From the NCBI GenBank assembly GCA_022447225.1, contig JAKVAZ010000003.1:124001-188000 (forward strand): a stretch of DNA of 64,000 nt, written 5' to 3'. The number at the start of each line of letters is the position of its first letter. Positions within the stretch are counted from its first letter, which is position 1. Positions 17,280 through 21,175 of the stretch are shown piece by piece. The translations under genes and the position numbers were made by a program. This DNA comes from Fuerstiella sp. (GTDB taxonomy: Bacteria > Planctomycetota > Planctomycetia > Planctomycetales > Planctomycetaceae). Under the pieces are notes generated by a model that was not told the origin of the DNA, did no database searches, and saw nothing but the letters and a program-made list of their open reading frames with translations.

Positions 17280-19121
17280 ATGAATCGCAATATATTAACC
17301 GCAGTCAGTCTCATCAGTGTCTTCGGTGTGATGAGTTCGGCACCTGCCGACAGTCACCGGGGCGCCGCTGTGGAACGGGTACGGGCAGACATTGAGTTCT
17401 TCGCGTCCGATGAACAGGAAGGTCGAGGTGTGGCAACAGCAGGAATCGACCGCGCTGCAGGATACATAGTCGATGAATTCCGGAATATGGGGCTGACCTC
17501 AGTGATGCCGGACAGAGGTTGGCATCAGAAATTTGATGTCAGAATCGGGGCGACGGGAGTCAGTAATCGGACAGCTTTGAGTTTTCAGAGTAGCCGTGGT
17601 ACGCGACTGCGACTGGTAACTGGAAAGGACTGGCAACCTTTGGAGCGCGGGAGTTCAGGCAGTGCGTCCGGCGGACTTGTCTTTGTTGGCTACGGAATCA
17701 GTTCTCCGCATGATAATTATGATGAGTACGCTGACGTTGATGTTGCCGGAAAGATTATCGTCCTGATACGTCGAGTACCGGGCCAGGGAGATCCTGAATC
17801 GGTGTTTTCCGGTGATTCAACGAGTACTCATGCCTATATCACCACGAAACTGCGGCTTGCCCGGGAACGCAATGCTGCCGCTGTTCTACTGGTCAATGAT
17901 CCGTTCACCGCACCGGATCCGGAGTCCGATAAACTTGCCGACAGTGATGGTTTTGGTCAGCGTGGTGGACCTGTTCCATTCATGCAGATTCGACAGGACG
18001 TTCTGGATCGACTGCTGAAAGAAAGTCCTCTCAGAACGTCCGGCGGTGAACTACTTACGAGTGTGCGTTCCGCAGCACGATACCTCGACAGAACAATGTT
18101 GCCGGTTTCCCAGGAGCTGAGATCCTGGTCGGTGAATCTTAATGTAGAGTTTCAGGGGCGTACCGTGGAGGGATCGAATCTGATTGGCATGGTGGAGGGA
18201 CAGGGGCCGAATTCCCATGAGACGATTATCGTCGGGGGACACTACGACCACATCGGATTCGGTGACTACGGATCCCGTGCACGGAACCGACGGGGGGAAA
18301 TTCATAATGGAGCTGATGACAATGCCAGCGGAACGGCAGCTGTTCTCGAGTTGGCACGACGTGTCGCGGCAGGTCCAGCGCCGAATCGTCGAATTGTGTT
18401 TATTTGTTTTTCCGGTGAGGAGCGAGGTTTGCTCGGCAGCCGTCACTACATCAGTCGGCCCCTGTTTCCGCTGGACGATACTGTCTTTATGTTTAACTTC
18501 GATATGATTGGTTCTCTTCGAAACAATCACATGGAGGTTAACGGAGTCGGGACTGGTGCTGAGTTTCTTCCACTCGTACAACAGGCTGACGAATCAACTC
18601 CGGTCAGTGTGAAAATTGTTTCGAGTCCTTTCGGCGGCAGCGATCATCTTCCGTTTTATCGAAAGCAGATTCCGGTCCTGTTTTGCTTCACCGGAGTAAC
18701 CGATCGGTATCATACTCCCGATGACGATGTTGAAATGATCAATATGGATGGAGTTGTCTCGGTGATTGAACTGGGAGAAAGATTGTTGCACGCGGTCGAT
18801 GGACTTCCAGTCAGACCGTCTTATCGTCGGTGTAGACGTGGTCGGACTCGGATGGCCGTTTTGGGAGTCCGACCGGACCTCTCCGACAGTACCGGTCGGG
18901 GGGTTGGCGTGTTGAGTGTTCGAGATGGTTCACCCGCAGCAGATGCCTCTGTACAGACAGGAGACATCATCGTTAATATCGGGGAACAGCAAATAGACGG
19001 TTATCCCGGACTTTACGATTTTCTTCGTAAAGCACCGGACGGTCGATACGTCCCGTTAATTGTGGAACGCAATGGTCAGCGTGTTGGTTTGCGGGTGAAG
19101 CTGGGAACAGCCAGTCGATAG
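17280..19121 (+). CDS. Exported M28-family metallopeptidase with PA-like and PDZ domains
   Basis: 613 residues. A signal peptide (about 1-24, ending SSAPADS) is followed by a segment with a PA-like insert (GLVFVGYGISSP to PFMQI) and the M28 zinc domain. The zinc ligands are readable: GGHYDHIGFG (H321), NGADDNASG, SGEERGLLGSRHY, FNFDMIG and GGSDHLPF. A PDZ domain (about 525-610) carries GVGVLSVRDGSPAADASVQTGDIIV. M28 enzymes are aminopeptidases or related hydrolases with two zinc ions, here in the periplasm or cell envelope. The PDZ domain suggests substrate or partner recognition. The FlgG-like gene starts 24 nt after its stop, behind its own ribosome-binding site, so the two are likely cotranscribed. 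Confidence 0.92.
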   Translation: MNRNILTAVSLISVFGVMSSAPADSHRGAAVERVRADIEFFASDEQEGRGVATAGIDRAAGYIVDEFRNMGLTSVMPDRGWHQKFDVRIGATGVSNRTALSFQSSRGTRLRLVTGKDWQPLERGSSGSASGGLVFVGYGISSPHDNYDEYADVDVAGKIIVLIRRVPGQGDPESVFSGDSTSTHAYITTKLRLARERNAAAVLLVNDPFTAPDPESDKLADSDGFGQRGGPVPFMQIRQDVLDRLLKESPLRTSGGELLTSVRSAARYLDRTMLPVSQELRSWSVNLNVEFQGRTVEGSNLIGMVEGQGPNSHETIIVGGHYDHIGFGDYGSRARNRRGEIHNGADDNASGTAAVLELARRVAAGPAPNRRIVFICFSGEERGLLGSRHYISRPLFPLDDTVFMFNFDMIGSLRNNHMEVNGVGTGAEFLPLVQQADESTPVSVKIVSSPFGGSDHLPFYRKQIPVLFCFTGVTDRYHTPDDDVEMINMDGVVSVIELGERLLHAVDGLPVRPSYRRCRRGRTRMAVLGVRPDLSDSTGRGVGVLSVRDGSPAADASVQTGDIIVNIGEQQIDGYPGLYDFLRKAPDGRYVPLIVERNGQRVGLRVKLGTASR

Positions 19122-19145: not shown

Positions 19146-20198
19146 ATGAACCGGGCGGCGATCAGGTTGTTGTTCATTGTGCCGGCTTTCTCAGCGTTTG
19201 TCGGAGTCTGGTCTCTGAAAACTGACCCCGCAGACAGTTCCCTGCCGGAAAGATCCCAATCAACAGTCAGGCCGGATTCGTCGGTGGCAGCTTCCCATTT
19301 GGGTGACAGTGAACATTCGGCGGTTTCGTTTAGCGTCGATGCAGCTGAATCTGAGGCTATTGTACGAGCGTATTCCGAACCGGTTCCTGGAAAACGCCGA
19401 GAACATGTTCGTCAGCTTATTCGGCGGCTTCGCCCACAGGAATCTGCGGCAGCAATTGAAGTGTGGCTGGAAGCATTCGAACATTCGGCCGATGATGAAA
19501 TTGCGTTTTTGATCAATCAGTCCGGGTTGCCCGGAGAAATGGATGCGAGTCCGTTGTCATCTTCTGTGTTGGGCAACAGTGCCGGCGGGGGCGCATTCCC
19601 ATCCAACGATGCGGAATCCATGAATCTTCAGATCGAGTCGGCCCGAACAAATCTGAACAATATCATGACAGTGGGGTATCGGGGCCGAATTGACGTTAGG
19701 ATGGTTTCGGCCGGCGCTGACACAGACTCTCAGCAGATTTCTTTGAGACGAATGGCCTGTGGGAACCTGTTTATGACAGGCGACCCCCTGCATGTCGCGC
19801 TGCGATCACCAGGGCTCGTTTTTTTTCAACTGGCCGATGGCCGATTAACGCGTAACGGAATGTTTGTCCGTACGGACGATGATCGTTTGGGACTGAGGGC
19901 TGGCGACGGAGTTGTGGCGATTCAGAATTCCCCGATTGTTCCGGCTGACGTCCAATGTACGATTGCGGCCGACGGACGGGTCCATGATGGTGACAGCAAC
20001 CGATCGTTTGGCGCAATTCGGGTCGTCACAGCAGATCGTGCGGATCAACTGTCGACGAATGACGGGGTCTACTTCACCACCAGATCGGAAGTCAGACCTG
20101 CTGAAGATTTCGAACTGCGCTCCGGAGGATTCGAGCTCAGCAATGTTGACGTGAAATATAACCAACAGATCCTTGAAATACGGAATGACTGCCGCTGA
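19146..20198 (+). CDS. Exported protein with a FlgF/FlgG (flagellar rod)-like domain
   Basis: 350 residues with a hydrophobic N-terminus (about 5-24) and a strong ribosome-binding site, GGGAGG, 6 nt before the ATG. Residues 25-150 are hydrophilic and unrecognised. From about residue 159 the sequence follows flagellar rod and hook proteins: ARTNLNNIMTVGYRGRI at the place of the NNLANxxTxGFK motif, then GDPLHVALRSPGLVFFQ and LADGRLTRNGMF. Next come a TIAADGRV segment and DGVYFTT, and the C-terminal GGFELSNVDV matches the GALExSNVD motif. It lacks the long terminal helices used for rod polymerisation, has a signal sequence not found in true rod proteins, and no flagellar genes are near. I infer a co-opted extracytoplasmic role beside the M28 peptidase. 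Confidence 0.75.
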   Translation: MNRAAIRLLFIVPAFSAFVGVWSLKTDPADSSLPERSQSTVRPDSSVAASHLGDSEHSAVSFSVDAAESEAIVRAYSEPVPGKRREHVRQLIRRLRPQESAAAIEVWLEAFEHSADDEIAFLINQSGLPGEMDASPLSSSVLGNSAGGGAFPSNDAESMNLQIESARTNLNNIMTVGYRGRIDVRMVSAGADTDSQQISLRRMACGNLFMTGDPLHVALRSPGLVFFQLADGRLTRNGMFVRTDDDRLGLRAGDGVVAIQNSPIVPADVQCTIAADGRVHDGDSNRSFGAIRVVTADRADQLSTNDGVYFTTRSEVRPAEDFELRSGGFELSNVDVKYNQQILEIRNDCR

Positions 20199-20392: not shown

Positions 20393-21175
20393 ATGCTCGT
20401 GTTTTTCATGGTTCTCGTCGCGGCGATCGTTCTGGGATCGATCGTCTATCGCTACGACCTGTATAACAAGGAGCCATGGTACCTGCTGCTGATGACGACT
20501 GGACTGGGGATGTTGACCGGGTACGGTTCCGGCCTGATCGAAGATCAGCTGATCCAGGCATGGAACATCTACGATCAACCGATGGAAATGGCCTGGCTGG
20601 CGGGTATTGTGGAAGAACTGGCCAAGGTGCTGGTCGTCGTGGCCGTTGCCTTTGTGTGCCGGTCTAAATTCGACGATCCTCAGGACGGGCAGATTTACGG
20701 AGCCTTTGCCGGACTGGGTGCCGCGATCATCGAGTCACGTGTCTACCTCACGCTGGGAACGCCCGAACTGGCAACCGTCGGCACGGAGTTCGCCCGTCTG
20801 TTACTGCACCTGCTGCTGGGAGGCATCGGCGGTTACGGTATCGGCCTGGCTCGCTTCCGGATTCGGGGCTGGGCGTGGAAACTACCGGTCTCGGTGACGG
20901 TGGCCGTGGTACTGCATTCGGCCTGGGACTGGGCCTGCGGCCTGCCCGCACAACTGGGCGAGATCACAATGGGCCCGCGGTATATCGCCGTGGGGCTGAT
21001 GCTGACCACGCTGTTGCTGTTTGGACTCATGACGCATTTGGGAACGCAACATGCCGCAGCAGCACTAAAACCGCGACGACTGCGCACGCTGTTCGGCTGG
21101 CCGTTCAACCTGATCTTCCGCAGTCGACCGGAACACGTTTCTCGGAACGACGATGACGCTCCGACTGAACCGTGA
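20393..21175 (+). CDS. PrsW-family intramembrane metalloprotease
   Basis: 260 residues with about seven hydrophobic segments. The three PrsW motifs are present: EExxK at E74-K78 (VEELAK), FxxxxxxxxE around F105-E114, and HxxxD at H175-D179 (HSAWD). PrsW proteins are membrane-embedded metalloproteases of the CPBP/abortive infection superfamily; B. subtilis PrsW cleaves the anti-sigma factor RsiW. A charged C-terminal tail of about 40 residues ends the protein. No anti-sigma gene is adjacent. It lies 194 bp after the FlgG-like gene on the same strand. The DNA here looks more GC-rich than its neighbours. The start codon is inferred, as no good ribosome-binding site is seen. Confidence 0.82.
   Translation: MLVFFMVLVAAIVLGSIVYRYDLYNKEPWYLLLMTTGLGMLTGYGSGLIEDQLIQAWNIYDQPMEMAWLAGIVEELAKVLVVVAVAFVCRSKFDDPQDGQIYGAFAGLGAAIIESRVYLTLGTPELATVGTEFARLLLHLLLGGIGGYGIGLARFRIRGWAWKLPVSVTVAVVLHSAWDWACGLPAQLGEITMGPRYIAVGLMLTTLLLFGLMTHLGTQHAAAALKPRRLRTLFGWPFNLIFRSRPEHVSRNDDDAPTEP

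Follow-up and report, generated by a model that had tools for sequence, protein, structure and literature searches.

The window analysed here, a stretch of 64,000 nucleotides from the planctomycete Fuerstiella sp., encodes a predicted exported protein with a domain of the flagellar rod proteins FlgF and FlgG (Table 1). The open reading frame check of the window finds the gene at 19146-20198, and a ribosome-site-like motif, AGGGAGG, precedes its ATG. The M28-PDZ peptidase gene that lies directly upstream is probably carried on the same transcript. The genome is a draft of 33 contigs, 97% complete; that of the sister species (G001) is a draft of 92% completeness.

Table 1. Features at the locus and the flhA remnant of the same genome
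Feature	Position	Strand	Basis or remark
Predicted exported FlgF/FlgG-like protein, 350 aa	19146..20198	+	ORF, profile and structure matches
M28 peptidase with C-terminal PDZ domain	17280..19121	+	24-bp gap upstream of the FlgF/FlgG-like gene; Pfam
PrsW-family intramembrane protease	20393..21175	+	194 bp downstream of the FlgF/FlgG-like gene; neighbour only
Hydrophobic N-terminal helix, residues 2-25	19146..19220	+	AlphaFold helix; hydropathy 2.12 over 17 residues
Conserved helical domain, residues 81-126	19386..19523	+	pLDDT about 78-88; family conservation; dN/dS 0.15
FlgF/FlgG-like domain, residues 158-350	19617..20195	+	flgF match, family profile, AlphaFold/Foldseek; dN/dS 0.28
Broken flhA fragment	L083:9659-9953 (this genome, contig C7)		Between def (peptide deformylase) and an unknown gene

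The protein consists of a hydrophobic N-terminal helix, a disordered stretch, a small conserved helical domain, a linker and the FlgF/FlgG-like domain. An AlphaFold model built with 14 relatives has a mean pLDDT of 61, rising to about 85 over the beta domain (residues 208-330), with low confidence outside residues 81-125 and 208-330; from the single sequence alone the mean is 35.6. On hydropathy and the model, helix 2-25 is predicted to be a signal sequence or membrane anchor, in agreement with the signal-type N-terminus proposed in an earlier note on this DNA. The helical domain, with model helices at 83-95, 101-111 and 116-125, is conserved across the exported FlgG-like family. It spans only about 46 residues flanked by disordered linkers, so that the unknown domain of 120 residues described earlier was too large. 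The beta D1 core of the FlgF/FlgG-like domain lies at about 203-335, and the domain ends with GGFELSNVDV and a short tail. Past SNV this tail has 16 residues, compared with 37-40 in true FlgF/FlgG, and an extension of about 155 residues stands ahead of the rod-like domain, so that D0 helices do not occupy both free ends. The claim that polymerisation helices are lacking was thus nearly right as to the tail, but the model contains a low-confidence helix at 156-174 as well as a short C-terminal one.

Homology to the rod proteins is found by several routes. The flgF model TIGR02490 matches residues 158-336 with 69.8 bits (E 2.4e-19), phmmer against solved FlgF gives E 7.7e-6, and a profile of 15 family members matches solved FlgG structures at E 1.3e-47. 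The D1 domain of FlgE/F/G (Pfam PF22692) is detected in 14 of these 15 members. The window protein is a divergent copy, for which Pfam on the protein alone gives no match; a PHROGs search with it also gives none. Foldseek with the AlphaFold model retrieves FlgF and FlgG at E about 1e-8, and the best match by TM(target) is the FlgG fragment 6jf2_A (0.71 over 150 columns). The profile and structure comparison that the earlier note had suggested is therefore significant, and the FlgF/FlgG pattern which it had read in the C-terminal part reflects homology and a matching predicted fold; a chance resemblance is rejected on the same profile and Foldseek matches.

Nevertheless, the window protein is not itself FlgF or FlgG. 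It shares with them (TIGR02488, TIGR02490, PF22692) the homologous D1 beta domain and predicted fold, together with the signatures 'N..N..T.GY/FR' at the N-terminal and 'E.SNVD' at the C-terminal side. Its scores fall below the curated cut-offs of the flgF (69.8 against 178.5), FlgG (19.7 against 252.75) and FlgEFG models (39.5 against 70.25 bits). True FlgF/FlgG lack a Sec signal and are exported through the type III gate, while here a hydrophobic N-terminus stands in place of the free D0 helix and no intact gate gene was found; nor is the protein encoded with other rod or hook genes in a flagellated genome. It differs further by its extra helical domain and disordered linkers. A true rod protein is rejected on the sub-cut-off scores, the N-terminal extension, the short tail and the hydrophobic N-terminus.

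Of 298 genomes of the class, 183 have matches to a seven-member profile, and many of these matches are ordinary FlgF/FlgG of about 270 residues. The long exported form is present in about 69 of the 84 sampled genomes of the window's own family (hand count); in other families the matches seen cover the FlgF/FlgG domain only, although a few of them lie in long open frames. An unrooted tree splits 44 exported proteins from 13 true FlgF/FlgG on a branch supported at 100/100. The hydrophobic N-terminus occurs in 44 of 45 exported members, the remaining one being cut by a contig end, and in none of the 13 true FlgF/FlgG. Scanning contigs with the window protein as query gives no confirmed relative, and scanning them with the family alignment returns, as named relatives, Schlesneria and other Planctomycetaceae loci. 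A flagellar origin or a part-time flagellar role is possible in relatives, because the genomes of most family members also encode a flagellum or a flagellar export gate. Among open-licence publications, we found no description of such an exported FlgF/FlgG-like protein.

The gene lies outside any flagellar locus, as the earlier note stated, and this holds for all neighbourhoods of relatives that were read; in none of them is it part of a flagellar operon. Across 45 loci the recurrent neighbours are non-flagellar and include MscL, RF-1, IPP transferase, sigma factors and a lactate-racemase-like protein. The M28-PDZ gene directly precedes it here, in the sister species and at one locus of another genus (L085, genome G235), and is not adjacent in the other clustered neighbourhoods. 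In G002, a third member of the same genus, the gene is at another place, without adjacent M28-PDZ, next to a homologue of the gene that flanks the broken flhA in our genome. PrsW adjoins it, outside this genome, only in the sister species. The proposed link to M28-PDZ thus stands locally and not as a general rule, PrsW is not supported as a partner, and a fixed partnership with both is rejected.

Searches of the 97% complete draft find no flagellar FlgE/F/G, no FliG and no FliP, and no FliQ above the cut-off. The only flhA remnant is a broken piece of about 295 bp with one stop and one frameshift; among FlhA types, that of the flagellated congener G002 is the nearest to it. In the draft of the sister species we find no FlhA, FliG or FliP, nor any FlgE/F/G beyond the exported protein; the syntenic site is empty of flhA, its flanking genes being only about 27 bp apart. 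Likewise, G279 has an exported copy, and no FlhA, FliP or other FlgE/F/G was found in it. G002 retains FlhA, FliG, FliP, FlgF and FlgG besides the exported paralogue, and a relocated flagellar gene is rejected on that ground.

The gene is intact in both this genome and the sister species (dS 0.65). The whole-gene dN/dS between them is 0.33 (bootstrap 0.25-0.45), of which part of the underlying divergence could predate flagellar loss. By part, the ratio is 0.15 (0.04-0.35) for the helical domain, 0.28 (0.18-0.44) for the FlgF domain and 1.1 for the linker. This constraint is weaker than that on pyrB, pyrC and parA (dN/dS 0.05-0.07) and far from that of a pseudogene. Purifying selection acts on the gene in this two-species comparison. 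The argument assumes that the flagellum was lost before the two species diverged, the most parsimonious scenario. From gene content, this planctomycete appears to have lost its flagellum and kept the exported rod-like protein under selection, and a role without need of a flagellum is supported: the gate, switch, rod and hook genes were not found here or in the sister species, yet the gene is under selection.

Relatives with an export gate bear on one of the rival readings. Their FlhA proteins are of two types, separated by the tree (100/100) and by gene order. Twelve relatives (G035, G203, G209, G270, G183, G226, G008, G005, G029, G088, G157 and G276; loci L127-L130, L133-L135, L138, L139 and L163-L166) have full FlhA and FliP and no FlgE/F/G match except the exported protein; among them, G226 is a single-contig genome. 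In nine of these gate-only genomes, FlhA is placed by the tree with the flhF-flhG-sigma-28 type. By Pfam domains, G226 encodes a FliO-FliP fusion (L163:7795-9279, +) with FliQ and FliR, and G008 a FliF-FliG fusion (L166:9771-11711, -) with FlhB; FlhF, FlhG and sigma-28 are likewise seen in examples. Judged from gene content, such a set may represent a rodless, hookless export machine. Separately, FlhA is present in G042 (L136) and in further genomes of family f2, where the FlgG-like family profile finds nothing at E 1e-6.

The exported protein could be a Sec-delivered rod substitute, or a periplasmic component, of a reduced export machine of the flagellar type that many relatives have (FlhA with FlhF, FlhG, sigma-28, FliO-FliP fusion, FliQ, FliR and FlhB), left over or re-used in this genus after the machine was lost. 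That it is the sole FlgE/F/G match in the twelve relatives, and that gate genes and a FliF-FliG fusion are read in the example genomes, speak for it; we consider it rather unlikely, since genomes that have only the other FlhA type, or no gate (this one, G001 and G279), carry the exported gene as well, while G011 has FlhA and FliG and no exported copy, and the recurrent neighbours are non-flagellar. Another proposal makes the protein a membrane tether or substrate-presenting partner of the co-transcribed M28-PDZ peptidase. The short gap and the gene order shared with the sister species and L085 are consistent with this, but the lack of adjacency in G002 and in the other clustered neighbourhoods, where adjacency alone was compared, leaves it very unlikely. 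Still more improbable is that the protein has no role today and is the decaying remnant of a flagellar accessory protein: the versions here are the shortest of the exported family, their linkers evolve fast and the flagellum is lost, but both non-flagellate species have the gene intact, with dN/dS bounded above by 0.45 and at 0.15 in the helical domain, whereas only a broken piece of flhA is left in this genome.

We favour a different reading, in which the gene product is probably a Sec-exported, inner-membrane-tethered FlgG/FlgF paralogue that works independently of a flagellum in the periplasm, likely as an envelope adaptor or scaffold. The hydrophobic N-terminus would carry the protein across the inner membrane or anchor it there, the disordered tether would provide reach, and the work would be done by the FlgG-type D1 beta domain together with the small helical domain. 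The rod-forming D0 helices seem to be shortened and buried within the chain, and therefore probably no rod is built. The protein would most likely serve as adaptor or scaffold for a partner in the envelope. We infer this specific role, as we do the periplasmic location, the tethering, the partner binding and the lack of polymerisation. For the family as a whole, we hold with somewhat better than even confidence that a rod domain, re-routed via Sec and tethered to the membrane, took on a new envelope function independent of the flagellum, which selection kept after the gate, switch, rod and hook genes were gone.

Known systems offer partial parallels. The P- and L-ring proteins FlgI and FlgH are Sec-exported and function around the rod, in the periplasm or the outer membrane. 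Their export and site resemble what we propose, but their fold is unrelated and they require a rod, of which no gene was found here. Non-motile bacteria can keep flagellar relics with the export machine retained, such as the hook-basal bodies of Buchnera and the chlamydial FlhA, FliF and FliI. These are flagellar parts without a filament, as here; in our case, however, none of the export-gate or motor genes tested is intact, and what persists is a single re-routed rod-like protein.

A gene annotated by FlgF/FlgG models is not in itself a sign of a flagellum. Rod proteins are regarded as exclusive to flagella, and a rod domain under selection without a flagellum is a test case for the re-use of machine parts. 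The finding suggests that a part of the motility apparatus has been given a different task in the cell envelope, and the protein would add a component not yet studied to the unusual envelope of planctomycetes.
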